Shown: in pieces, positions 5,426 to 32,263 of the stretch | Position numbering within the stretch: the first letter of the stretch is position 1 | Layout of the letters: each line of letters starts with the position of its first letter | Source of the DNA: an uncultured Sphingomonadaceae bacterium | GTDB lineage: Bacteria > Pseudomonadota > Alphaproteobacteria > Sphingomonadales > Sphingomonadaceae | Assembly (NCBI GenBank): GCA_947493955.1 | Contig: CANLSQ010000001.1 | Coordinates: 868,001 to 932,000, forward strand | Direction: 5' to 3' | DNA: 64,000 nucleotides | Made by a program: the position numbers and the translations under genes | Notes under the pieces: model-generated | What the model was told of the DNA's origin: nothing | The model's input: the letters and a program-made list of their open reading frames with translations, nothing else | Databases searched by the model: none

Positions 5426-8400
5426 CTAAAAGCCAATTGCAAAGCCAACCCGTGCACCGGTTGTGCCCTTGACTGACGATCCTGCAATTCCGCCGGAGAA
5501 ATAGACTTTTTCTGTCAACCGGCCGACAAATGCGGTCGAAAAGCCGCGTTGTCCGCCATAGGTGGAAAGATTGAAAGATAGCGACATGGTGCTGTCTGGC
5601 ACGATCATGGCACCGGACATGGCCATTGCCGCTGCGATTCCGCCATTGGCTTGGCGATCTATAAGCGAGACTCGTTCTGTCAATCGGTCCGCTCGCGTTT
5701 CCAGTGCCGCGATACGTCCATCAAAGTCGATCAGTCTGCTGACATCAATGTTCAATGCACCCAGATTGCCGGCTGCATCCGTGGTGACGAGACTGAGTGC
5801 GCCTTCCTGCGCCGCCTGACTGGCTGAGGACGTCAGTCCTGAAATGCGCACCGTCGCGCCTTCGCCGCCCAGCGCGATTAGGTTATCACGGTCTGCAAAA
5901 GCACCCGGACCGATGGCCACGGCGCCTTCACCTGTGGCACTAGCACCATTGCCCAGAGCGATTGCGCCGTTTCCAATCGCGACATTCAGATTACCGATGG
6001 CGACCGCACCCGTGCCCGTGGCGGTGTTGTCCGCGCCCAGGGCTACCGCGCCCGTGCCAGTTGCAAAATTGGGATCACCGATGGCGACTGCGCCATTGCC
6101 AGAGGCGGTATTATTGGAGCCGATGGAGACGGCTTTGCCATTTATCGCCTGGGCACCAACGCCGATGGCCACAGACTCTTCGCCGCTGGCTTCGCTGCCC
6201 TTGCCTATGGCCAAGGCATCCTGACCGGTGGCGCTGGCGCCGGGGCCGCTGCTGTTGCTGTCAAAATAGGCTAGTTCTTCGCCGTTGGCTTCGGCCTGCG
6301 CCAGCGCGCGATTGGCATCGGTCTGCGCCTGCATTGCCTCCGTGCGAGCGGCATCGGCACTGGCTTGCGCCTTGACGGCATTTTCAAAAGCTTCATCCGC
6401 CTTGGCCTGCGCATCGACCACGCCCGCCCCGGCCTGATCTGCGGCCAGCTGTGCAGCCCTGGCTTCTGCACGAGCGGTGTCGGCAGTCGTCTGGGCGGTT
6501 GCCGCACTGGCAAAGGCTTCATCCGCACGGGTCTGCGCTGCGGCGGCTTCTGTGCGCGCGGTATCTGCGGTGTTTTGCGCTGTCGCCGCATTAGCGAGAG
6601 CAGTATCGGCAGTCGATTGGGCATTAGCGGCCGCATTCGCCACGACATTCACCTGTCCGACATTGGCGGCATCGGTATTCTCGGTGCCGGCCGCAACGTT
6701 GGTTATCTGACGCTCACCGCCGACAAAGCCGACCGATAAACTGTTAGCGCGATTAGCAATGGATCCAGCGCCCAGTGCCACCGAATTAATCGCCGTTGCC
6801 TGCGTTTCATTACCGATTGCGACCGCGCCCCTGGCGGAGGCGGTAGCGGCAAGAGCGCCAATATTGTTGGGATCATCGCCATCTGCACCAATAGCGATAG
6901 ACTGGTCACCGCTGGCCACACTTCTTGAACCGAGGGCGGTGCTGCGGTCACCGCTGGCCTGACTGCGAGAACCGAGTGCGGTGCTATATGCACTGGTTGC
7001 GTCGCTGGAAGTTCCGATGGCGGTGCTGCGTTCACCGCTGGCCACACTAGCCTGCCCGGTGGCAGTGCTGCTGATACCGCTAGATTCACTGAAACTTCCG
7101 GTAGCGGTGCTACCGACCCCGCTGGCCCGACTGTCGCGTCCGATAGCGGTGCTGTTGATACCAATAGCCTCGCTGGAAGCCCCGATGGCGGCGCTGCCCA
7201 AACCGCTGGCCACGCTGCTAAATCCGGCGGCGGTACTGCGTGCAGCACTGGCCTGGCTGGAAGCTCCAATGGCGATGCTGCCGGTCCCGCTCGCCGCACT
7301 TCCGGATCCGAACGCGCTTGCTTGGGCATTGTTGGCCAATGCATCATTGCCGACTGCCGTGCTGTCATCGCCCGTGGCCCGCGCGCCCAGAGCATCGGGG
7401 TCCCGGCCATCTTCGCCTATGGCAACAGAACGCGCACCGGTGCTTCGAGAATCCGTACCGACAGCAACGGAACCCTCGCCAGTGGCCTGGGCTCCCCCGC
7501 CAACCGCAGTGGAGCCGGATGCAATCGCACCAAGACCAAGGGCCACCGCCCGTTCGCTGGTCGCCTGCGCATCATTGCCGATTGCAATTGCACCGCTGGC
7601 AGATGCGGTCGCGCCCTGATCATCTGCATCCTCGCCATCAGCGCCAATAGCAATAGAGCGGTCACCGCTGGCCTGACTGGAGTGGCCCAATGCTGTGCTG
7701 TTGATACCGGTCGCCGCACTAAAGGCGCCCGTTGCAGTAGTGTCTATAGCCGTAGCCATACTCGACCGGCCTAGGGCTGTGCTGTCATTGCCAGTGGCGT
7801 CACTCGATACGCCAATCGCTGTGCTGGCGGTCGCCGTTGCCTCGCTTAAAGCGCCTAATGCTGTGGCATTTAGAGCGGTGGCATCACTTACAACACCAAT
7901 TGCGGTGGTGTTCGTTGCGGTTGCTCTGCTGCCGGTTCCCATGGCGGTTCCATTTAGACCGCTGGCCACACTGGCCTGCCCGATCGCAGTGCCATTTGTA
8001 CCGCTGGCCTCACTTCTGTATCCGATCGCGGTGGTGCGATCACCGACGGCTTCACTTCTATATCCGATCGCGGTACTGGTTTCACCACTGGCCGTACTGC
8101 GGGAGCCATAAGCGGTGCTTCTATCGCCTGTTGCCGTTGCCCCGTTTCCACATTCGAGCCTACCGCTGGAATTGTTGCGACAGCTGCTTGCACTGACCGT
8201 GGCGATGGATGCGGTAAGTTGCCCGAGGTTAACAGCGTGAGTATCTTCCGTGCCCGCTGCGACATTCACAATCTGTCGTTCTGCGCCCACCGAGCCTACC
8301 GACACCGTATTCGCGCGATTGGCTATCGAGCTTGCGCCCAGCGCCACCGAATTGAGCGCGGTCGCCTGTGCATCATTACCAATCGCGGCCGCGTCGTCAC

Positions 8401-9601
8401 CCGATGCAACGGCACCAATGCCGTTCCCGAGCTGGCCATCGGCGCCGATCGCTATGGACCGTTGACCGCTGGCCTGACTGAAACGGCCTATAGCAGTGCT
8501 GTCACTACCGGTCGCCGCACTGGAACTGCCAAGCGACGTAGCACCAAAAGCGGTAGCTCGGCTTTCAGAACCTATTGCAGTGCTTCGGATTGCGGTTGCA
8601 TTGCTATCAACACCGGTGGCGGTACTCAGAAGACCGCTAGCTACACTAACAGTTCCAGTGGCAGTGCTATCGTCGCCGGTCGCCTCACTAAAAGCCCCAC
8701 TCGCGGTACTGTTCGTCCCACTGGCTGTGCTTCTGACCCCGGTGGCAGTGCTTGTAGCGGCGCTAGCTTCACTGGCCGCACCTGTAGCGGTACTATTGAG
8801 ACCACTGGCGTCGCTGTTAGCACCATTTGCGGTACTATTGAGACCGCTGGCCTCGGCGTTAGCACCATTTGCGGTGCTGCCAGTGTTGCTAGCCAAGCTC
8901 AAGTAGCCAATGGCGGTGCTGTTGATACCAGTTGCCCGGCTAGAAACGCCCGTAGCGGTGCTTCGGTCGCCAAGGGCCCGACTTAAAGTTCCGGTCGCAG
9001 TGCTACTTTCTCCTCTAGCCGCACTAGAACTGCCAGTGGCAGTGCTGTTCACACCGGTGGCGTCGCTAGAGGCACCGGTGGCAGTGCTTTGGGAGCCACT
9101 GGCCTCACTGAGGTTGCCGGATGCTGTGCTGTTGGCACCGCTTGCTTCGCTGAGAGCGCCAGTCGCCGTGCTGCTCGCACCGCTAGCCTCGCTATCGCCC
9201 CCGATGGCCGTGCTACGAAAGCCGGATGCCGTGCTTGAAACGCCGACTGCGATTGCGTTTGATTCACTAGCAGTGCTGCCCTCTCCAACAGCCGTAGCTC
9301 CAAATTCAGTCGCCGCGCTACCAGAGCCAATCGCAACGCCTTGATTGCCGCTGGCCGTACTGTTTGCGCCAATCGCAGTGCTATCCCTACCGGCAGCTGA
9401 TGCTCCAACGCCGCAAGCTAGGCGATCATCAGCTCCAGATGTCGTGGCACCGCCATCATTATCGGTGCCTGCATCCACCTCGCCATTATTATTGCGATCG
9501 AGCAGGCAGGTTTCCGCCGAAGCAGGGTTGGCCGCGGTCAGCGCCGCGATGCTGGTTGCGAGTAAAAGACTGCAGCGGATGGTTCTGATTGAAGGGGTCA
9601 T
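5426..9601 (-). CDS. YadA-like trimeric autotransporter adhesin
   Basis: A 1391-residue protein starting with a signal peptide (MTPSIRTIRCSLLLATSIAA, cleavage near PASA-ET). ATG 9601 is chosen because AAGGAA lies ~9 nt upstream; a frame extension to 9739 is unlikely. Most of the protein is left-handed beta-roll head sequence of ~14-residue repeats (xSTATGxxSxASGx). There are three head blocks. The first two each end in a neck motif (ERQIVNVAAGTEDTHAVNLG, ERQITNVAAGTENTDAANVG). An Ala-rich heptad stalk (TADTALANAATAQNTADTA) follows the second, then a shorter third head. The C-terminal ~70 residues form the membrane anchor (GFSTAFVGRLTEKVYFSGGI, ending GFAIGF). Short Cys-containing segments start the first two head blocks (ETCLLDRNNN, SCRNNSSGRLECGNG). 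By family it mediates attachment or autoagglutination; the ligand is unknown. Confidence 0.93.
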   Translation of the reverse strand: MTPSIRTIRCSLLLATSIAALTAANPASAETCLLDRNNNGEVDAGTDNDGGATTSGADDRLACGVGASAAGRDSTAIGANSTASGNQGVAIGSGSAATEFGATAVGEGSTASESNAIAVGVSSTASGFRSTAIGGDSEASGASSTATGALSEASGANSTASGNLSEASGSQSTATGASSDATGVNSTATGSSSAARGESSTATGTLSRALGDRSTATGVSSRATGINSTAIGYLSLASNTGSTANGANAEASGLNSTANGANSDASGLNSTATGAASEASAATSTATGVRSTASGTNSTASGAFSEATGDDSTATGTVSVASGLLSTATGVDSNATAIRSTAIGSESRATAFGATSLGSSSAATGSDSTAIGRFSQASGQRSIAIGADGQLGNGIGAVASGDDAAAIGNDAQATALNSVALGASSIANRANTVSVGSVGAERQIVNVAAGTEDTHAVNLGQLTASIATVSASSCRNNSSGRLECGNGATATGDRSTAYGSRSTASGETSTAIGYRSEAVGDRTTAIGYRSEASGTNGTAIGQASVASGLNGTAMGTGSRATATNTTAIGVVSDATALNATALGALSEATATASTAIGVSSDATGNDSTALGRSSMATAIDTTATGAFSAATGINSTALGHSSQASGDRSIAIGADGEDADDQGATASASGAIAIGNDAQATSERAVALGLGAIASGSTAVGGGAQATGEGSVAVGTDSRSTGARSVAIGEDGRDPDALGARATGDDSTAVGNDALANNAQASAFGSGSAASGTGSIAIGASSQASAARSTAAGFSSVASGLGSAAIGASSEAIGINSTAIGRDSRASGVGSTATGSFSESSGISSTATGQASVASGERSTAIGTSSDATSAYSTALGSRSQASGDRSTALGSRSVASGDQSIAIGADGDDPNNIGALAATASARGAVAIGNETQATAINSVALGAGSIANRANSLSVGFVGGERQITNVAAGTENTDAANVGQVNVVANAAANAQSTADTALANAATAQNTADTARTEAAAAQTRADEAFASAATAQTTADTARAEARAAQLAADQAGAGVVDAQAKADEAFENAVKAQASADAARTEAMQAQTDANRALAQAEANGEELAYFDSNSSGPGASATGQDALAIGKGSEASGEESVAIGVGAQAINGKAVSIGSNNTASGNGAVAIGDPNFATGTGAVALGADNTATGTGAVAIGNLNVAIGNGAIALGNGASATGEGAVAIGPGAFADRDNLIALGGEGATVRISGLTSSASQAAQEGALSLVTTDAAGNLGALNIDVSRLIDFDGRIAALETRADRLTERVSLIDRQANGGIAAAMAMSGAMIVPDSTMSLSFNLSTYGGQRGFSTAFVGRLTEKVYFSGGIAGSSVKGTTGARVGFAIGF

Positions 9602-9771
9602 GATGCAAATTCCTTGATTGGGGTGCGCGCCAGTGCGGCGGCTTGGCGGGCGGGTCGGCTCGATAATGTCGGTTGGATATCTGGAGTGCTTGGTTGGCAC
9701 GCGCGAAACGGACGGGACACCGGGGAGCACCCCGCCCATTCCCGCGGGTGCCTACTCATGCCCCCTCGACA

Positions 9772-15589: not shown

Positions 15590-16411
15590 TCAGGCGTTTT
15601 TAAGGACATCCAAAAGCTGGTTTTCGAGCCAGCGTTTGGACTTGTCATCGGCAAAACTATGAGACGCGCTATCTAGTGCCTCGGTGGTAATGTTCGGCAA
15701 CGCTCTGACAGCTGCAAAGTCTTTGCTGGTCCAAGCTGCCAGAAACGCGCGAGCGGTGGTATCTCTGCTGGCCAGCAATATGCGGCACGGTTTGTCGAGC
15801 CGGATCAATCCGTTTTCAAGACGATTGGCAAGATCGGTATTTTCTTGTTTTTGAGTCGCTTGTTTAAGGCCGCTTGCAAGTTTTCTTAAGTCGATCTTGC
15901 CGGTAAATAGATCGATAATCGACTTGGGATTTTTTAAACGCTCCCAATAACGTGACCGTATGGCAGACGGTGGCGGTTTGGTTGGCGTTTGAGAGGTTGG
16001 ATCAGCTTCTTCAATGACCCACGGGTTGGCTAATATGGTGCGATCAATAGCTGTATTATTGCCAAATAGCGCTAAAGCGGTAGCCGCATCGCAATTGCCG
16101 AAAGCGACTATTTTGGAAAGCTTAGGGCATGTTTCGCGGAAATATTCCGTTGCGGCTTCGATATCGGCTTTTGTCTCCAAAAACCCCTCATTGCTACCAC
16201 TGCTATCGCCAATTCCGCGGCGGTCATAGCGAAAGACCGGAAAGCCATTGCGGGCAATCTCCTCTGCCAGTTTGGCCATGCCGGAGTGAGCGCCAGCCCT
16301 GATCTCATTGCCGCCGCTTACAATCAATAGTCCGGTCGGCCAAGTGCCGCTGTCGAGCGTGCCGGCGAGCATTGTATCCTCGCATATAAATTGATGAAAG
16401 GACCGCGTCAT
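15590..16411 (-). CDS. Exosortase A system-associated hydrolase 1 (alpha/beta hydrolase)
   Basis: 273 residues from ATG 16411, whose ATGA overlaps the stop of hydrolase 2. An alpha/beta hydrolase with an oxyanion region (LLIVSGGNEIRAGAHSG), YDRRGIGDSSG, and a nucleophile elbow reading FGNCDAATAL, so the nucleophile position is Cys rather than Ser. A late His (SASHSF) can complete the triad. It matches the hydrolase 1 family found only beside exosortase A loci (TIGR03100-like). The substrate is unknown; a thioester made by the neighbouring ligase/ACP pair is a possible target. Last gene of the leftward arm of the XrtA locus. Confidence 0.88.
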   Translation of the reverse strand: MTRSFHQFICEDTMLAGTLDSGTWPTGLLIVSGGNEIRAGAHSGMAKLAEEIARNGFPVFRYDRRGIGDSSGSNEGFLETKADIEAATEYFRETCPKLSKIVAFGNCDAATALALFGNNTAIDRTILANPWVIEEADPTSQTPTKPPPSAIRSRYWERLKNPKSIIDLFTGKIDLRKLASGLKQATQKQENTDLANRLENGLIRLDKPCRILLASRDTTARAFLAAWTSKDFAAVRALPNITTEALDSASHSFADDKSKRWLENQLLDVLKNA

Positions 16412-17118
16412 GCCGATACCCATGCTGCCAAGTCGGTCGCTATCGCGCCTGAAAGAAGCATGTCGTCACCAGGTTCAGCACGTAACCAAAGCGCCGAGCC
16501 GGCGATCCGCACATCGGCTTGTTTTGTGTTGTTTTCTAGCTGTACCGTGCGAACGCTATCGGACTGAGCGGGCAAGGCGTCTTCGAGTTCGGCAAACAGG
16601 GTATGACCAATGCTGTTGCCCGCAAGATCGACCTGACCTTGCTTTGCCTCTGCGACCAATTGCGCCATATCCGTGGATAGCCCCGCTTCCTTGTCAGAGG
16701 CCATGCGCGTACGCATCATTGTTCGCAACAAAGTTAAGCCTTTTGCAGGAGATAGCCGCCATTTTTTAGCATCATCATTAAAATCATCGATCAGGCACCC
16801 GCCGCGAAACGAAGCGATATGATGCGGCTCGGACAGTGTTTCGGAACAAGTCGCCAGCGCCTGCCGCCAAATTTTTAAACTGGCCTGCTCCTGAGGGAAA
16901 AGGCTTTCATTGGTGCCGGGCAGGTCGGGCAGGATGCTACCGATACCATGTTCGGCAAGCAGGCGCATCATGTCGACCAGCATCCGCCGCATGCGGTTCA
17001 TTTCATCGAAAAGCGGCGGGATAATCAGGATGGTTTTTGCGTGGATAGCGCCAACCTGCAGGCAAAGTTCATCATGTCCTTGAAACTGATAACTCGAATA
17101 GTCGAGCCTTGCCGTCAC
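16408..17118 (-). CDS. Exosortase A system-associated hydrolase 2
   Basis: 236 residues, GTG start overlapping the ACP stop (GTGA). It opens with an alpha/beta hydrolase-like segment (TILIIPPLFDEMNRMRRM, GIGSILPDLPGTNES) but the expected nucleophile elbow is degenerate (ASFRGGCLIDD), so catalysis is doubtful or unusual. The family (TIGR03101-like) occurs with hydrolase 1 in XrtA loci. I infer a paired role with hydrolase 1, perhaps as a non-catalytic partner. The C-terminal half is less conserved. Confidence 0.82.
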   Translation of the reverse strand: MTARLDYSSYQFQGHDELCLQVGAIHAKTILIIPPLFDEMNRMRRMLVDMMRLLAEHGIGSILPDLPGTNESLFPQEQASLKIWRQALATCSETLSEPHHIASFRGGCLIDDFNDDAKKWRLSPAKGLTLLRTMMRTRMASDKEAGLSTDMAQLVAEAKQGQVDLAGNSIGHTLFAELEDALPAQSDSVRTVQLENNTKQADVRIAGSALWLRAEPGDDMLLSGAIATDLAAWVSA

Positions 17119-17390
17119 TCGGCTGCTTTCATCTCAGCAAAGGCAACGAGATTTCCGAATGTTTCGAAAAGCTCGCCATCGACTTCATCATCCTCGATCA
17201 TGATATCGAGACGGTCTTCCAACTCGGTCAAAAGCCCTGCAACCGCCATGCTGTCCAGTTCAGGTAGCGCACCAAAAAGCTCAGTTTCCGCGGTAAACGC
17301 AGCCACCTGTGCTTCGTCCAGTCCCAATATGTCCTGCATGACCGCACGAACAGCGGCTTCTGGCGTCAATTCCGTATTTTCCGACATCAA
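17115..17390 (-). CDS. Acyl carrier protein, XrtA locus
   Basis: 91 residues with the carrier-protein four-helix pattern and the phosphopantetheine site in LPELDSMAVAGLL (Ser of DSM). Acidic throughout, as usual. GGGGG lies ~9 nt upstream of ATG 17390. In family context it carries an acyl group as a thioester made by the divergently encoded acyl-CoA ligase; the downstream hydrolases overlap it in a translationally coupled string. A second housekeeping ACP is expected elsewhere, so this one is pathway-specific. Confidence 0.92.
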   Translation of the reverse strand: MMSENTELTPEAAVRAVMQDILGLDEAQVAAFTAETELFGALPELDSMAVAGLLTELEDRLDIMIEDDEVDGELFETFGNLVAFAEMKAAE

Positions 17391-17430
17391 TAAACCCCCG
17401 AATCCGGATAACCGCGCTTCCCTAAAGCGA

Positions 17431-18471
17431 TCAACGCTTTCCTACAAGGGCTGACATCCGGTGACGCAGGATAGACAACCAGGAAAGAGGGTTATTGGGC
17501 CAAAACATCTCCAAACGATACCGTGTACGGACGTCTTCCATCCATTCGCGCTTGTAAGGATCATTACCTGTGCCGAAATCGATCAGTTCCACCCGATCAA
17601 CATCAATGGCATGCTGAAACATGGCAACGGATAGCAAAGTGCCGGGCGATGATTTCGTGGCATCAGCGACATGAGCAAGCTTGTGGATAAGCGCTTCACC
17701 ATTTTCCGCAGTCCAAAATTGCGCTGCAACGGGCTTGCCGTCAATATAGGCGAGGCCAAGGCGCAAGCATCCCGCTGCGGCCTCCTGCTGGGCAATATTT
17801 TTCAGGAAATCCGGACTGCCTTCCTCTGGTTTCCAGCTTTTGGCGTAAACATCGCAATAATCCGCCCAATGCTCTTCGGAAAATTCGGTCTCGATCCGGA
17901 TGGAAACGATGTTTTTCTTCGCTTTGCGGCGAACTGTGTTGCGTAGTTGGCCAGGCCGCTCAGCCCAATATTGGTCGAATGTGCGACCGTTTACGACAAG
18001 GATATGGTTGTCATCCGCTTTTGATTTGAATACCACCCAACCGGCTTGCTCAAACGCGCGTTCGGTCAGACTGGCGGCGTAATCTTCCTCTGGAACAGGA
18101 GCAATTTCAATATGATGTGAAAGGGATTTAAGCTTCTTTGCGACTCCCGCAAGTAAAGCCAACTTGGTGACTTCATCAAATTTCCCGGTAAAAATTGGTC
18201 GATAGGTAAAATTATACCAGTTGGCGAGCGCGGTATAGTTTCCGAATCTTTTTTTCGTCAGGAACATCCACGCTTGCGCGTCGTTTTCGGCGCTATGAAC
18301 GATCAGTGGTTGAGTATCGGGCAGACACTGCTCATGCAGTTGTTTCAGCCATTCCATACGATCGAACAGTGACTTTTGAACGCTACGGTCAAGCTTCTCG
18401 CCAGCTTCGGCTTGCGCCGACTGGAAATTATCGTGATATTCACTGTTCATCGCTACCGTCATGTCTGTCAC
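17431..18471 (-). CDS. GNAT/FemAB-like N-acyltransferase, XrtA locus
   Basis: 346 residues from GTG 18471; ATG 18462 or 18450 are equally possible because no start has a clear ribosome site. The C-terminal half matches the Acetyltransf_6 fold (RNTVRRKAKKN; GLAYIDGKPVAAQFW; HKLAHVADATKSSPGTLL; IDFGTGNDPYKREW). The family transfers an acyl or aminoacyl group to an amine, often in cell-surface polymers. As first gene of the arm with ACP and hydrolases it is a good candidate for using an ACP-bound acyl group. A second FemAB-like enzyme is encoded at 28.4 kb. Confidence 0.82.
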   Translation of the reverse strand: MTDMTVAMNSEYHDNFQSAQAEAGEKLDRSVQKSLFDRMEWLKQLHEQCLPDTQPLIVHSAENDAQAWMFLTKKRFGNYTALANWYNFTYRPIFTGKFDEVTKLALLAGVAKKLKSLSHHIEIAPVPEEDYAASLTERAFEQAGWVVFKSKADDNHILVVNGRTFDQYWAERPGQLRNTVRRKAKKNIVSIRIETEFSEEHWADYCDVYAKSWKPEEGSPDFLKNIAQQEAAAGCLRLGLAYIDGKPVAAQFWTAENGEALIHKLAHVADATKSSPGTLLSVAMFQHAIDVDRVELIDFGTGNDPYKREWMEDVRTRYRLEMFWPNNPLSWLSILRHRMSALVGKR

Positions 18472-18503
18472 AAATTTCTACTTTTTCCCATAGGCTCAAG
18501 CAT

Positions 18504-20045
18504 TTGACTACTGAACACATAAAATACGCGTTCCCTTTGGACCGTCTTGCCGTTGGAAAAGATCCCGACGCCACGGCCTTGGTCACACGCTCAGGCTCTC
18601 TTAGCTACAAGATGTTAAATCATCGTGTGGGTTTATTGGCGCGTTGGTTATTGGACCAAGGTTTCGGCAAAGGCGACAGGGTAGCGACATGGCTGCCGAA
18701 GACGGAATTGGCCTGTATCATGCCGCTCGCAGCGGTTCGTGCGGGATTGGTGCATGTGCCGATCAATCCCATTCTGAAGCCTGCCCAGGTAAAGCATATC
18801 GTGACAGACAGTGGCTCAAAACTGCTGATTACCAATACCGGGCGCATAAAGTCTCTTGAAGATATGCCGGTCGATAAGGGATGTGCAGTTTGGAACGATG
18901 CAGCGGTTTCGACCGATATGGACAACGTAGCGGATCCGCTAGAACCCAATGAAACTGCCAAGAATGTCAACGCTCTGGCAGCGATATTATACACTAGTGG
19001 ATCAACTGGACGGCCAAAGGGTGTGATGCTCACCAACGCTAATCTCAGCCTTGGTGCTGTCAGTGTCGCGCAATATTTGAAGATGAAGCGCGATGACCGA
19101 ACGCTATGTGTGCTGCCCCTAAGTTTTGATTATGGTCAGAATCAGTTGCTTTCAACTTGGTTTGCGGGAGGTTGCGCCTACCCACTGGATTATCTGACAC
19201 CGCGCGATGTCATAAAGGCCTGCTCGCGTGAAGCCATTACCACATTGGCGGCCGTCCCACCGCTTTGGGTGCAATTGGTGGACCAGAGCTGGTCAGAGGA
19301 GGGGATATTGTCCATGCGCCGACTCACCAATAGCGGCGGTGCCTTGACGCCATCTCTGGTGAAGCAGTTACGGGCTATTTTTGGCTCTAAGACAGATATT
19401 TACGCCATGTATGGATTGACCGAGGCTTTTCGATCCACTTATCTGGAACCGGCGTTGATCGATGACAATCCGACCAGCATGGGAACCGCTATTCCTTTTG
19501 CAGAAATCATGGTGGTTGGCTCAGATGGCGATATTGCAGCAGTTGGGCAAGAGGGGGAGCTCGTTCATGCCGGACCGCTTGTGGCACAGGGATATTGGCA
19601 GGATGATGACCGCACAGCCGAACGCTTTAAATCGGCACCCGCGGCATCCGAATATGGCGGAATAGCAGTCTGGTCGGGCGATACAGTCAGGCGAGAAAGC
19701 GATGGCTTGCTTTATTTCGTTGGACGAACCGATAATATGATCAAAAGCTCCGGAAACCGGATCAGTCCATCAGAGATTGAAGAGGTTGCGGTTGAGTCCG
19801 GGTTTATCGCGGAAGCCGTGGCTATTGGCGTTCCGGATGAGCGGTTGGGGCATGCGATTTGCCTTTATGTTCGGCCTGCTACAGGTGAGGAAACAGAAGA
19901 TATTGGGCAGGCGTTGAATAAATATCTTAAACGCAATTTACCGAATTTTATGCACCCGCGGGATATTGTTGTGATGAAAGAATTTCCAAAAAACCCTAAC
20001 GGGAAACTGGATCGTAACGCATTGGCAAAGGCCCGGAATATATGA
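18504..20045 (+). CDS. Acyl-CoA ligase (AMP-forming), exosortase A system-associated
   Basis: 513 residues from TTG 18504 (LTTEHIKYAFPLD). The frame is open further upstream, but that part lies inside the divergent acyltransferase gene and has no ligase similarity. ANL-superfamily motifs are present: ILYTSGSTGRPKGVMLT (P-loop), YGLTEAFRSTYLEP (A5), and FVGRTDNMIKSSGNRISPSE with NGKLDRN near the end (C-terminal hinge and lysine). It should activate a carboxylic acid as acyl-AMP and load CoA or the locus ACP. It matches the TIGR03098-like family tied to XrtA. The stop overlaps the decarboxylase start (ATGA). Confidence 0.9.
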   Translation: MTTEHIKYAFPLDRLAVGKDPDATALVTRSGSLSYKMLNHRVGLLARWLLDQGFGKGDRVATWLPKTELACIMPLAAVRAGLVHVPINPILKPAQVKHIVTDSGSKLLITNTGRIKSLEDMPVDKGCAVWNDAAVSTDMDNVADPLEPNETAKNVNALAAILYTSGSTGRPKGVMLTNANLSLGAVSVAQYLKMKRDDRTLCVLPLSFDYGQNQLLSTWFAGGCAYPLDYLTPRDVIKACSREAITTLAAVPPLWVQLVDQSWSEEGILSMRRLTNSGGALTPSLVKQLRAIFGSKTDIYAMYGLTEAFRSTYLEPALIDDNPTSMGTAIPFAEIMVVGSDGDIAAVGQEGELVHAGPLVAQGYWQDDDRTAERFKSAPAASEYGGIAVWSGDTVRRESDGLLYFVGRTDNMIKSSGNRISPSEIEEVAVESGFIAEAVAIGVPDERLGHAICLYVRPATGEETEDIGQALNKYLKRNLPNFMHPRDIVVMKEFPKNPNGKLDRNALAKARNI

Positions 20046-21277
20046 ACAAGGTCAAGCCTATCGGCCCGATACCTGACGGCTATGAAAGTGTAAGCGGAGA
20101 GCTCGCTATCGGCGGTGCATCTGCCACTGACTTGGTGGGCGAGCATGGCTCACCGCTTTTTGTCTATTCAGAGAACCTGCTTAGTCGGCGGATTGAAGCT
20201 TTGCGTGCAACTATGCCGGAACAATTACACATTCATTATGCGATGAAGGCCAATCCCTTTACACCTGTGCTTTCGCACATGATTACCCTTGTTGACGGTA
20301 TCGATATTGCCTCTGGCGGTGAGCTGGCCATGGCTTTGGGGGCTGGGGCTACTGCGGGCCACATCAGCTTCGCCGGTCCGGGCAAGCGCGATGACGAGCT
20401 GCTGCAGGCCATTAAAGCCGGGGTTACGATCAACATCGAATCACCAAACGAATGTGACCGGGCTCTATCCATTGGTGCCCGGGAAGGGATTAAACCGCGC
20501 CTTGCGGTCCGCGTTAACCCGGATTTCGATTTGAAGGGCTCCGGTATGAAAATGGGCGGTGGTGCCAAGCCATTTGGTATGGACACTGACCTCGTTGCTC
20601 CAACCGTGCGCAAGATAATGGCATCAGACGCCCACTGGCGCGGATTCCATATTTTTGCCGGGTCGCAGGCTTTGAAGGCCGATGCCATTATAGAAACTCA
20701 GGCGCAGACCATTGCCCTGGCGGCGCGACTGGCTGATGAAATCGGCCATAGTCCGGAACATGTTAATCTGGGTGGGGGGTTCGGTATACCCTATTTTCCT
20801 GGTGACGAGGCCTTGGATATCACGGAAATCGGGATTGCCTTGAAGCAACAGTTTTCTGATCTGCCTGCTATATTGTCAAATACGCAATTTGCGCTTGAGC
20901 TAGGGCGCTATCTTGTTGGTGAAGCCGGGGTTTATCTGACTCGGATAGTGGACCGGAAAGAGAGTCAGGGCGAGACATTTTTGGTAACAGATGGCGGCCT
21001 GCATCATCAGCTCGCCGCAAGCGGTAATTTCGGAACGGTGATCCGCCGGAACTATCCAGCGGCGATCGCAAACCGTTATGATCAACCATCGGAAGAGACT
21101 GTTTCCATTGTGGGTTGTCTGTGTACCCCGCTTGATCTTTTGAGCGACCGTGCGGAAATGCCTGTCGCCCAGGTTGGCGATGTGGTGGCGATATTCTGTG
21201 CCGGGGCTTATGGTGCGACAGCCAGTCCTGCAAATTTTCTGGGGCAGGGGGCAGCCAAGGAAGTAATGGTTGGTTGA
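20042..21277 (+). CDS. PLP-dependent decarboxylase, exosortase A system-associated
   Basis: 411 residues of fold-type III (alanine racemase-like barrel), related to ornithine and diaminopimelate decarboxylases. PLP lysine K69 in HYAMKAN; phosphate-binding HVNLGGGFGIPY; LELGRYLVGEAG; active-site Cys in VGCLCTPLDLL. It belongs to the TIGR03099-like family found with XrtA. The substrate is unknown, likely an amino acid or an aminoacyl product of the upstream ligase with which it is translationally coupled. A biosynthetic diaminopimelate decarboxylase is less likely given the locus. Confidence 0.9.
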   Translation: MNKVKPIGPIPDGYESVSGELAIGGASATDLVGEHGSPLFVYSENLLSRRIEALRATMPEQLHIHYAMKANPFTPVLSHMITLVDGIDIASGGELAMALGAGATAGHISFAGPGKRDDELLQAIKAGVTINIESPNECDRALSIGAREGIKPRLAVRVNPDFDLKGSGMKMGGGAKPFGMDTDLVAPTVRKIMASDAHWRGFHIFAGSQALKADAIIETQAQTIALAARLADEIGHSPEHVNLGGGFGIPYFPGDEALDITEIGIALKQQFSDLPAILSNTQFALELGRYLVGEAGVYLTRIVDRKESQGETFLVTDGGLHHQLAASGNFGTVIRRNYPAAIANRYDQPSEETVSIVGCLCTPLDLLSDRAEMPVAQVGDVVAIFCAGAYGATASPANFLGQGAAKEVMVG

Positions 21278-29493: not shown

Positions 29494-30716
29494 TGGACGA
29501 GATATTGTTCCTGACCCATCGTGTGCCATGGCCGCCGAACCGTGGAGACAAAATTCGTGCGCATCATATCTTGCGCAGGCTGATGGAATATCGACCGGTA
29601 CACTTGGCTTGTTTTGCCGATGACGAAGCCGAGGCCAACGAAGATAGCGATATCAGAACACTCCTGGCATCATCGAAAATTGTCAGGCGGAATAAGCCCA
29701 ACTGGCAGGCCGGGATTGAGGCGCTTGCATCTGGCAAACCGGTTTCGCTGACGTCCTTTCAGAGTCGTGAAATTCAGACATATGTTCGGGACACACTGAA
29801 GACCCGGTCGATTGATTGCATTTTCGTATTTTCAGGACAGATGGCGCAATTTGTTCCAGCCGATTTCCCCGGTCGGGTGATCATGGATTTTGTGGACGTC
29901 GATAGCGCCAAGTTTGAAAGCTATGCGGACGACGGGGTTGGTCCAATGGCATGGATCAACCGGCGCGAAGGCAGGTTGCTGAGAGCATTTGAAAAACGGG
30001 TTGCGACCTTTGCCGACCATTCGCTTTTTGTGAGTGACGCTGAAGCAGGATTATTTCGGCAGCGCTCGGGGCTTGATGATCAGAAAGTCAAAGCCGTCGG
30101 CAACGGGATTGATCTTGATTTTTATGATCCGGCAAAGGTGAGCGCAGTCGATCTTCCTCATGAAGGGTCGCTGATCATCTTTACCGGACAGATGGATTAT
30201 CGTCCGAATGTCGAAGCTGTTGTCAGTTTTGCAAAAGAGGCAATGCCGGAAATTCTGAACCACCACCCTGACGCACAATTCGCCATTGTCGGACGCGCGC
30301 CGACGACCGACGTTATCAGGCTGGATGGATCAAACAACACGATGGTGATGGGGAGTGTTGACGATATTCGCAGCTGGTTACAGGCAGCGGATATCGTTGT
30401 CGCACCATTGCGTATTGCACGGGGCATACAGAACAAGGTGCTTGAGGCCATGGCCATGGGCAAACCGGTTGTTGCTTCCGCCGCCGCAGCTCAGGGCATT
30501 GAAGCTGCAAATGGCGAGCATTTTTGTGTCGCTGACGATGTGCAGCAGGAAGCAATGCTGGTGTGTGATCTGTTGTCAGATCCCCAAAAGGCGCAAGCGC
30601 TGGGTGAGAGAGCCAGCGCTTTGATCCGTTCAAATTACAGCTGGAAAACACAGCTCGCTGGCATCGCCGAGCTGTGTGGTTTTGATGAAAACATCATGGC
30701 CGAGGCTGCGGAATGA
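29493..30716 (+). CDS. XrtA-system glycosyltransferase family 4 (TIGR03087-like)
   Basis: 407 residues from ATG 29493 (MDEILFLTHRVPWPPNRGDK). GT-B fold: N-terminal Rossmann segment, then the GT4 C-domain with IIFTGQMDYRPNVEAV and the donor-binding E-x7-E region in RGIQNKVLEAMAMGKPVVAS. It adds a sugar to the repeat unit on the cytoplasmic face; donor and acceptor are unknown. Overlaps the FemAB and exosortase genes by a few bases at each end. Confidence 0.93.
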   Translation: MDEILFLTHRVPWPPNRGDKIRAHHILRRLMEYRPVHLACFADDEAEANEDSDIRTLLASSKIVRRNKPNWQAGIEALASGKPVSLTSFQSREIQTYVRDTLKTRSIDCIFVFSGQMAQFVPADFPGRVIMDFVDVDSAKFESYADDGVGPMAWINRREGRLLRAFEKRVATFADHSLFVSDAEAGLFRQRSGLDDQKVKAVGNGIDLDFYDPAKVSAVDLPHEGSLIIFTGQMDYRPNVEAVVSFAKEAMPEILNHHPDAQFAIVGRAPTTDVIRLDGSNNTMVMGSVDDIRSWLQAADIVVAPLRIARGIQNKVLEAMAMGKPVVASAAAAQGIEAANGEHFCVADDVQQEAMLVCDLLSDPQKAQALGERASALIRSNYSWKTQLAGIAELCGFDENIMAEAAE

Positions 30717-32263
30717 GCAGTGCAGCTATCGAACGGTCCATGGACGCACCAGCGAGCGTTCTTGCCGCAACCCTCTGGTCAAAGCATCTGCGACTGCTGG
30801 GTTTTGCAGTTGCTGCGATATTGGTCCTGTTCTGGCGGGACGGTCTGGCGATGCTGGATGCCTGGTGGAATGTTTCAACCTATAATCACTGTCTGTTGAT
30901 AGCACCAATTATCGTCTGGCTGGTGCAGCAGCGCTTGGAGGAACTGGCCAAAATCACTCCGGCCATTTGGGCACCGGGATTGCTTTGGATGGTTGCTGCT
31001 GCCGGCGGTTGGTTGTTGGGTGAAGCAGCGGGTGTTTCCTTCGCGCGCCAGCTGGGACTGGTAATGATGTTGCAAGGTGCAGTCATCACATTGCTTGGTC
31101 CAAAGGTCATGCGGGGGCTTATTTTCCCGCTATTTTACAGCTTTTTCCTCGTACCTTTTGGAGAGGAATTTGTCCCGTTTCTGCAAACCATCACAGCGAA
31201 AATGTCGATGGTTTTTCTTGGCTGGGCCGATATTCCTGCCTTTATCGATGGTGTCTTTATCTCAACGCCAACGGGTTATTTTGAAGTTGCCGAAGCCTGT
31301 TCCGGGGTCAAATTTCTGATTGCAATGATTGCCTATGGCGCATTGGTTACCAACCTCTGTTTCCAAAGCTGGCAGCGCCGAACATTGTTCATGATTGCTG
31401 CTGTGGCCGTACCAATTGTCGCCAACGGGATACGCGCCTTTGGAACCATCTATATTGCGCATCACACCACTACCGATTTCGCCACCGGCTTTGACCATAT
31501 CTTCTATGGCTGGTTTTTCTTTGCGTTTGTTCTGGCATTGGTGATGGCTATCGGCTGGCCGTTTTTTGATCGCAAGCTGGATGAGCCGATGGTTGACGGA
31601 GACGCGATTGAGCGAACTGTCTCCAAGCCATCGAGGCTAGTACCTAAATCTGCGATGATTGCGATGGCAGTCATTGTTGCCGCACCGGTTCTATGGACAT
31701 CGGCACTGGCCGCGCAAAGCTCTCCGGTGCCCGACAAGATCGCTCTGCCTACAGTCGCTGGTTGGGAGCGCGTGGACTATCGCCCGCAATTTGACTGGCA
31801 GCCGCGATTTGATGGCGCCAATCATCAGTTGCTCGGCCGCTATCGCCATGTCTCCAGTGGTGCAGAGGTTGATCTCGCCATTGCCGTATATGACCGGCAG
31901 GAAGATGGTCGCGAGATTGTTGGCTATGGGCAGGGCGCTTTTGATCCCGGCACGGACTGGTCCTGGAGCCGAAACCTGCCAGCGCCCGCATCAGGCAAGG
32001 CAATACAGATAACGGCGCCCGGTCCGGTGGTACGCGACGTCCAGTCCTTCTACCGCGTCGGAAACATACTGACCGGCAGCGGCTCGGCCGTGAAGCTTGA
32101 AACTCTGAAAAGCAAATTGCTTGGTGGCAACCAGCAGGCCGTTGCAATCCTGATATCCGCTGAAAAAACCGATGAAGGTGGACCAGCGGCGGCCATGGAT
32201 GATTTTCGCAAGGCGCTGGGCCCCCTCGATAAAGTGGCTGACGAAATGGCAGGTCTGCGCTAG
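30713..32263 (+). CDS. xrtA: Exosortase A fused to EpsI domain
   Basis: 516 residues. The first ~300 form the eight-helix exosortase with its catalytic triad: C196 in ACSGVKF, R241 in NGIRAFG, H262 in FDHIFYGW. The C-terminal ~180 residues after a further membrane helix (MIAMAVIVAAPVLWTSALA) form an EpsI-type domain (PTVAGWERVDY; LAIAVYDRQEDGREIVGYG). Exosortase is the inner-membrane transpeptidase that recognises PEP-CTERM tails and works with exopolysaccharide. EpsI is a separate gene in some lineages; here it is fused. No PEP-CTERM substrate gene lies in this window. Confidence 0.95.
   Translation: MSSAAIERSMDAPASVLAATLWSKHLRLLGFAVAAILVLFWRDGLAMLDAWWNVSTYNHCLLIAPIIVWLVQQRLEELAKITPAIWAPGLLWMVAAAGGWLLGEAAGVSFARQLGLVMMLQGAVITLLGPKVMRGLIFPLFYSFFLVPFGEEFVPFLQTITAKMSMVFLGWADIPAFIDGVFISTPTGYFEVAEACSGVKFLIAMIAYGALVTNLCFQSWQRRTLFMIAAVAVPIVANGIRAFGTIYIAHHTTTDFATGFDHIFYGWFFFAFVLALVMAIGWPFFDRKLDEPMVDGDAIERTVSKPSRLVPKSAMIAMAVIVAAPVLWTSALAAQSSPVPDKIALPTVAGWERVDYRPQFDWQPRFDGANHQLLGRYRHVSSGAEVDLAIAVYDRQEDGREIVGYGQGAFDPGTDWSWSRNLPAPASGKAIQITAPGPVVRDVQSFYRVGNILTGSGSAVKLETLKSKLLGGNQQAVAILISAEKTDEGGPAAAMDDFRKALGPLDKVADEMAGLR

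Follow-up and report, generated by a model that had tools for sequence, protein, structure and literature searches.

What reaction is carried out by the genes that accompany exosortase A (XrtA), part of an exopolysaccharide-linked sorting system? This question is raised by a locus in a window of 64,000 nucleotides (the whole stretch of DNA analysed; contig CANLSQ010000001.1, forward-strand positions 868,001–932,000) from an uncultured Sphingomonadaceae bacterium. At positions 15,590–21,277 of this window, six genes near the exosortase gene encode an adenosine monophosphate (AMP)-forming ligase, a carrier protein, a fold-III pyridoxal phosphate (PLP) decarboxylase, two proteins related to alpha/beta-hydrolases (hydrolase 1 and hydrolase 2), and a GNAT-fold N-acyltransferase (Table 1). 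Three of the products are direct members of TIGR03098, TIGR03099, and TIGR03100, whose names (exosortase A associated, hypothetical equivalogs) give no reaction. The gene set resembles the machinery by which some antibiotic makers convert an amino acid to a beta-amino acid on a carrier protein, and we consider that the ligase, carrier, and decarboxylase probably make up a cassette for carrier-bound omega-amino acids like those of VinN/VinL/VinO and BtrK/BtrI. Its product would be passed to the exosortase-A polysaccharide. This VinN/VinL/VinO-type reading was adopted because the decarboxylase is BtrK-like, the ligase carries an amino-acid signature, and glutamate mutase genes lie beside related ligases. 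It gives partner genes with placeholder names a testable reaction, from aspartate to a beta-alanyl carrier. In the titles, abstract openings, and passages covered by the literature search, which left most subscription journals outside its reach, no stated reaction for these families was found, and a term search of the 2006 PEP-CTERM paper (PMC1569441) showed no ligase, decarboxylase, or acyl carrier.

In the proposed pathway, the ligase would adenylate the side-chain carboxylate of an amino-dicarboxylic acid and load it on the carrier; the substrate would most likely be L-aspartate here, and 3-methylaspartate in relatives with glutamate mutase. The PLP enzyme would then remove the alpha-carboxylate on the carrier to give an omega-aminoacyl thioester, which would be beta-alanyl from aspartate (or gamma-aminobutyryl if the substrate is glutamate). 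Finally, an acyltransferase, most likely the GNAT protein and less likely hydrolase 1 with hydrolase 2, would pass this group to the exosortase-A polysaccharide, where the acceptors would probably be amines freed by the deacetylase and the polymer would gain new positive charges. The substrate, the order of the steps, the acceptor, and the product are thus predictions. An earlier note on this DNA had proposed that the ligase loads an amino or carboxylic acid and that the decarboxylase makes an amine-bearing form, and this first half appears right: the amine-binding Asp and VinN-like residues of the ligase support an amino acid, which we narrow to an amino-dicarboxylic acid, and the kinship with BtrK supports the second step, which we narrow to a predicted omega-aminoacyl carrier. 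The second half of that interpretation, concerning transfer and the hydrolases, needs to be changed. If the proposal is correct, antibiotic-type amino-acid chemistry would serve to modify a structural polysaccharide, and the cassette, being portable, would be recognisable in other surface-sugar loci.

The gene identities, coupling, family placement, signature residues, and co-occurrence that carry this proposal were read from the sequences. As the earlier note had described, the ligase and decarboxylase genes share four bases (ATGA) on one strand, and the carrier, the two coupled hydrolases, and the N-acyltransferase are encoded divergently, all on the minus strand. The minus-strand chain runs from carrier to hydrolase 2 to hydrolase 1 through four-base overlaps (GTGA between the carrier and hydrolase 2 genes, and ATGA between the hydrolase 2 stop and the likely hydrolase 1 start at 16411), with the PF13480 gene upstream of the carrier gene. 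The longest open reading frame (ORF) of the ligase, beginning at 18306, reaches into the divergent gene; therefore, its start was placed at the probable TTG at 18504. The six genes had been assigned to six exosortase-associated subfamilies, which proved to be too many. Only the ligase, decarboxylase, and hydrolase 1 scored high enough for membership in an exosortase-associated NCBIfam family; hydrolase 2 fell below the cut-off of TIGR03101 and is named for its position and coupling, as in its relatives, rather than for membership, and no exosortase-specific NCBIfam model matched the carrier or the GNAT acyltransferase. The phosphopantetheine-site serine of the carrier (Ser47) was kept in 73 of 73 aligned rows and 19 of 19 diverse rows, and its nearest solved relative in a PDB search was 2lki, labelled merely as a putative uncharacterized protein.

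The decarboxylase looks like a BtrK-type enzyme that would act on a carrier-bound amino acid. In a phmmer search against the PDB, its top matches were the BtrK structures 7ru7 and 2j66 (230 bits), compared with 153 bits for the best diaminopimelate decarboxylase. According to PMC7857480, BtrK, the L-glutamyl-[BtrI] decarboxylase, acts on carrier-bound glutamate. A tree was made from 52 rows, including 22 LysA rows (21 from genomes and that of Aquifex), 19 rows of the decarboxylase family, and BtrK; in it, the clade of 22 LysA rows excluded the decarboxylase family with a support of 100, and BtrK joined the 19 family rows with a support of 82. Motif readings, which covered the decarboxylase rows other than L153, gave CT[PST]xD in all 19 family rows, CTPED in BtrK, CTP in the window decarboxylase, and CE[ST] in the LysA rows. 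Furthermore, a segment resembling HHxLAASG..RRNYP occurred in most family rows and BtrK, with RP[AST] in the LysA rows instead. A separate decarboxylase branch near the BtrK-like family (L156–L163) has PLCT[GS]AD and RRPA segments.

The ligase is likely an amino-acid loader, and residues of its pocket point to an amino-dicarboxylic acid as the likely substrate. The comparison drew on 80 named loci, chosen by similarity to the window decarboxylase and mostly from Sphingomonadales. When the window ligase was aligned with 77 ORFs from these loci, the amine-binding Asp, the adjacent Tyr, and Arg310 were each present in 77 of the 78 rows; the corresponding window residues are D209, Y210, and R310, together with S277 and K501. 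In contrast, all seven acyl-CoA ligases compared from the same genome (out of 19 matching places) lacked both the Asp and the Arg, and had an FH-type motif in place of FD. VinN (3wvn, 186 bits) was the best lone adenylation enzyme for the ligase in the PDB, with multi-domain synthetases scoring higher or about equal; a query with a ligase fragment, aimed at VinN, gave no match. According to PMC11253843, VinN recognises the amine by D230, has a bulky F231 and S299, and carries K330/R331 on a short beta13–beta14 loop. At positions that we set through the printed alignments, the window ligase matches VinN at the Asp, the aromatic residue (GrsA 236), and the Ser (GrsA 301). In five loci (L166–L170), an amidotransferase, a carrier, and a ligase occur together, and there is no decarboxylase; Gly replaces the Asp in the L169 and L170 ligases, which may take a non-amino substrate.

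A clue to the substrate was provided by glutamate mutase (TIGR01503), which was found at E 1e−40 in only 4 of 398 genomes of the phylum, in 3 of them over its cut-off. Three of the four mutases adjoin a TIGR03098-like ligase, in genomes from different families of the sample. At L036, the mutase (450 bits, over cut-off), with its S and E parts in one frame, lies between the ligase and the decarboxylase; at L165, the mutase and ligase stand beside an AAC(3)-like acyltransferase; and at L182 (mutase 370 bits, cut-off 390), the order is a short MutS-sized ORF, MutE, a 402-amino-acid protein that we read as a putative MutL-like reactivator, and the ligase. The chance that a random site falls within 5 kilobases (kb) of a ligase is about 0.002 in each of these three genomes. 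The fourth mutase (L183) lies beside methylaspartate ammonia-lyase (543 bits), its catabolic partner. In the pocket segment, the window ligase reads TNSGG, and the ligases of L036, L165, and L182 read TTAGG, TTAGG, and TSSGG, respectively; this change is a possible 3-methyl switch, seen in three cases only.

Meanwhile, the distribution of the genes across genomes showed that the arrangement is not due to chance. In a 200-genome sample of the phylum, searched with thresholds of E 1e−90 for the decarboxylase and E 1e−100 for the ligase and with the TIGR03109 cut-off for XrtA, the decarboxylase occurred in 24 genomes, the ligase in 27, and both in 21 (p = 4e−20), and 8 of the 10 genomes with XrtA over cut-off had the decarboxylase (p = 5e−7), although the sampled genomes are related, so that both p-values overstate the association. 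Around 22 sampled decarboxylases and that of the window (23 of 24, G151 being left out), flanks of up to 20 kb contained the ligase in 19 cases, the carrier in 20, and hydrolase 1 in 8, these 8 being the XrtA genomes. Among the 59 named loci with full 10-kb flanks, the ligase and carrier were present in all 59, each hydrolase in 52, and the GNAT acyltransferase in 51; XrtA, which lies close to where the 10-kb flank ends, was seen in 29. The earlier note had the set travelling with exosortase A. The strict family comes nearer to this, since XrtA accompanies a TIGR03099 match over cut-off in 8 of 10 genomes, the exceptions being G107 and G155, and the ligase is found with the decarboxylase in 21 of its 24 genomes, but the set is often apart from XrtA: 16 of the 24 decarboxylase genomes lack XrtA over cut-off, G010 and G185 among them having weaker matches. 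Because most XrtA genomes have the decarboxylase and most decarboxylase genomes lack XrtA, the association is real yet not strict; the wider cassette can occur apart from exosortase A and is found well beyond that setting. Within the order of G014, a search for further loci (6 of 48, all of them known already) added no new decarboxylase genome.

For the transfer step, the GNAT protein at 17.4 kb is a better candidate than the FemAB protein at 28.4 kb, judging from the gene content of the loci. The earlier note had given both acyltransferases the task of placing the product on amines; the former can keep this role, whereas the latter is not pathway-specific. FemAB is present in the XrtA locus L176, which has no ligase or decarboxylase, and was not seen in the similar L177; its candidacy as the cassette's own transferase is weakened by this occurrence without the cassette. 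The acceptor is predicted to be a sugar amine because the loci contain the GNAT protein, AAC(3)-like PF02522 acyltransferases that adjoin the ligase or carrier in L044, L165, and L175, and sugar deacetylases in L033 and L036. Among the papers listed by a literature text search for beta-alanyl amino sugars, none used that term. Locus L044 (11350–14060) also contains, between the decarboxylase and the carrier, a B12-dependent radical S-adenosylmethionine protein (151 bits against KedN5 C-methyltransferases, for which the cut-off is 700), and the AAC(3)-like acyltransferase that follows it scores far below resistance-gene cut-offs.

Known systems show how such a cassette could work. In vicenistatin biosynthesis, as described in PMC11284099, VinN loads 3-methylaspartate on VinL, VinO decarboxylates it there, and a glutamate mutase belongs to the same set. 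The likeness lies in an adenylation enzyme, a free-standing carrier, a PLP decarboxylase described as working on the carrier and, at L036, a mutase (VinI/VinH in vicenistatin) between the ligase and decarboxylase; the difference is that the present genes stand in a polysaccharide locus of Proteobacteria, VinO being compared by description only. Annotation of the locus genes named no polyketide synthase and nothing corresponding to VinM or VinK. The same source reports that FlvN takes aspartate and that fluvirucin B2 has a beta-alanine starter, the substrate and product predicted here, with FlvN and its decarboxylase compared by description only. The butirosin pathway (BtrI/BtrK) provides the nearest solved decarboxylase and likewise a carrier-bound amino acid, but the ligase here is AMP-forming, and Pfam scans of the six genes named no BtrJ- or BtrH-type domains. 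Butirosin biosynthesis loads by BtrJ, of ATP-grasp type, and transfers to the aminoglycoside by BtrH. In D-alanylation, DltA and DltC form a stand-alone amino-acid ligase and a carrier that feed a cell-surface polymer, as proposed here; however, Dlt is not known to include a decarboxylase, and the DltA models matched the window ligase at 165–170 bits, far below their cut-offs.

Several observations weigh against the proposed cassette. The window decarboxylase shares as much identity with L157, a row of another branch, as with BtrK (34 percent each) and only slightly less with Aquifex LysA (31 percent; 28 percent with the LysA of its own genome), and the grouping with BtrK falls short of a support of 100 in a tree from which VinO is absent. 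Arg310 of the ligase falls in the segment of K330/R331, the pair that binds the carboxylate in VinN, but the one-residue shortening of the loop is not placeable from sequence. Furthermore, Arg310 occurs in the ligases of decarboxylase-less loci; because these include L169 and L170, which lost the amine-binding Asp, it is not specific to amino substrates, and the idea that it marks only decarboxylase-linked ligases was rejected on account of this wider distribution. The mutase-linked ligases of L036, L165, and L182 score 505, 453, and 421 bits, below the TIGR03098 cut-off of 592, and only L036 also has a decarboxylase nearby, none being seen at L165 or L182. A genome search of the window organism found no glutamate mutase, so the 3-methylaspartate clue comes from relatives, and aspartate is for this reason the first guess for the window substrate. 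Only 10 of the 24 decarboxylases reach the TIGR03099 cut-off; 3 of the 24 decarboxylase genomes (G001, G022, and G081) have no ligase at threshold, although in G081 a weaker ligase adjoins the decarboxylase (L173); a nearby carrier is missing from 3 of the 23 decarboxylase loci read; and the ligase and decarboxylase are far apart in G102. For the polymer itself, the literature searched yielded no structure.

The earlier note had both hydrolases proofread thioesters, and for both together this is unlikely. In hydrolase 1, Cys111 was conserved in 61 of 61 aligned rows and Asp221 and His255 in 60 of 61 (one gap), each also in 7 of 7 diverse rows. This complete Cys-Asp-His set speaks for a pair of editing thioesterases serving the carrier, as do the coupling of the hydrolase genes to the carrier gene and six loci (L058, L061, L062, L082, L089, and L092) that have the hydrolases and the cassette and have no XrtA, FemAB, deacetylase, or export gene within their 10-kb flanks, which fits a role near the carrier. 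However, hydrolase 2 has Arg at the nucleophile elbow in every row with a residue there (61 of 65, the other four being gaps), as do all 7 diverse rows. Of the 200 genomes, 9 contained hydrolase 1, namely, all 8 with both XrtA and the decarboxylase, neither of the 2 that have only XrtA, and 1 of the 16 that have the decarboxylase and no XrtA (G028, a weak match of 79.6 bits away from the decarboxylase). In 7 of the 59 full-flank loci, the ligase, carrier, and decarboxylase are present and no hydrolase lies nearby. Six of these seven (L071, L079, L095, L097, L123, and L127) are also without GNAT and XrtA in their flanks, and none of these six genomes has XrtA over cut-off (three have a weaker match). 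Editing by the pair is therefore unlikely.

Cys nucleophiles serve transfer as well as hydrolysis, for example, in polyhydroxyalkanoate synthases and some thioesterases, and the pair may serve as a link between the cassette and the polymer or have an editing role at the carrier. One specific possibility, which we regard as doubtful, is that exosortase-A exopolysaccharides bear omega-amino acids made on a carrier by chemistry of the antibiotic type (beta-alanyl groups, with 3-aminoisobutyryl groups in the relatives that have a mutase) and that hydrolases 1 and 2 are a new paired transferase, in which the Cys subunit takes the aminoacyl group and the nucleophile-less partner holds the polymer. 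This would fit the occurrence of hydrolase 1 with XrtA and the cassette in the 200 genomes and the location of hydrolase 2 and hydrolase 1 in one open frame of 620 residues at L040 (5384–7243), a locus that also has the GNAT protein. The suggestion that the hydrolases occur wherever XrtA and the cassette do held in 8 of 8 sample genomes and failed at the Sphingobium-type loci, namely, L126 (Sphingobium), which is the seventh of the full-flank loci that lack hydrolases, and the shorter L103, L111, and L115. These loci have genes for export, a deacetylase, FemAB, the carrier, GNAT, the ligase, and the decarboxylase, with XrtA in L103, and no hydrolase was present in the locus DNA, the rest of these genomes not having been searched. 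Since they combine XrtA-system genes, GNAT, and the cassette with no nearby hydrolases, GNAT is the likelier transferase. The proposed omega-amino-acid decoration itself is independent of the hydrolase pair. Two successive FemAB-like ORFs were seen in L111, L115, and L126. PDB searches with hydrolase 1 and GNAT gave no match, and hydrolase 1 weakly matched SglT, a type IV pili motility protein (30 bits, cut-off 300).

Three other explanations concern the ligase and decarboxylase. The ligase might be a fatty-acid activator that charges the carrier with a long-chain acyl group, so that GNAT and FemAB make N-acyl amino acids or sugars and the decarboxylase makes a free diamine acceptor; the NCBIfam name of its family is acyl-CoA ligase, and the enzymes of a 2011 study, as cited in PMC7293339 and PMC4897644, use acyl carriers. 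We consider this quite unlikely, as fatty-acid activation is disfavoured by the FD motif set against the FH-type motif of the seven acyl-CoA ligases and by TIGR03694, the exosortase-linked N-acyl amino acid synthase acyltransferase, which had no match in the genome at E 0.001; moreover, three glutamate mutases adjoin ligases of the wider family, and the solved enzyme nearest to the decarboxylase has a carrier-bound substrate. Alternatively, the ligase could load an amino acid on which the decarboxylase has acted earlier in free form, giving, for example, a diamine. A sister pathway, incednine biosynthesis with IdnL3, proceeds by free-substrate decarboxylation (PMC11284099), and several alanine-racemase-fold decarboxylases use free amino acids (PMC7857480), but BtrK, the closest solved enzyme, acts on a carrier-bound substrate, and the conserved Arg of the ligase would presumably be left with no carboxylate partner by a pre-decarboxylated substrate; this order of steps accordingly has a low probability. 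That the decarboxylase is a misnamed lysine-pathway enzyme is scarcely credible. It scores 246.1 bits against TIGR01048 (lysA), which would speak for such a role; however, this is below the cut-off of 297.9, a separate true LysA lies elsewhere in the genome (443 bits, over cut-off), the motif is CTP rather than CE[ST], and the protein falls outside the LysA clade, and LysA identity was ruled out on these grounds. The carrier-bound cassette is therefore our preferred explanation of the three genes.

Table 1. Features of the window, and mutase–ligase stretches of three other loci
Feature	Position	Strand	Evidence	Remarks
AMP-forming ligase, TIGR03098	18504..20045	+	614.7 bits, cut-off 592.35	Predicted to charge the carrier with an amino-dicarboxylic acid, as a VinN/FlvN-like enzyme
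Fold-III PLP decarboxylase, TIGR03099	20042..21277	+	569.8 bits, cut-off 478.45	Predicted substrate, carrier-bound amino acid
ATGA shared by the ligase stop and the decarboxylase start	20042..20045	+	Sequence	
Hydrolase 1, TIGR03100	15590..16423	-	223.6 bits, cut-off 168.45	Cys111-Asp221-His255
Hydrolase 2, alpha/beta-hydrolase relative	16408..17118	-	TIGR03101 41.4 bits, below cut-off 202.75	Arg105 at the nucleophile place
Acyl/aminoacyl carrier protein	17115..17390	-	PF00550, over cut-off	Phosphopantetheine site LDSMAV (Ser47)
GNAT-fold N-acyltransferase, PF13480	17431..18471	-	Pfam	Favoured candidate for aminoacyl transfer to an amine
XrtA-system polysaccharide deacetylase, TIGR03006	27500..28423	+	Profile match	Possible source of acceptor amines
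FemAB-family protein, TIGR03019	28420..29493	+	Profile match	XrtA core rather than cassette
Exosortase A (XrtA, TIGR03109) with EpsI domain	30713..32263	+	Profile match	
Asparagine-synthase-like amidotransferase, TIGR03108	32172..34169	+	Profile match	
Mutase–ligase stretch, L036	7801-13995			
Mutase–ligase stretch, L165	7705-12945			
Mutase–ligase stretch, L182	6844-11400			

Beyond the cassette, the locus continues, in order, with genes for an export protein, a chain-length protein, a kinase, an outer-membrane protein, an ATPase, the TIGR03006 deacetylase, the TIGR03019 FemAB protein, a glycosyltransferase, XrtA, and the TIGR03108 amidotransferase. Near the exosortase locus, the minus strand of the window (5426–9739) also encodes a protein of 1437 residues that partly matches trimeric autotransporter adhesins, at scores far below cut-off.

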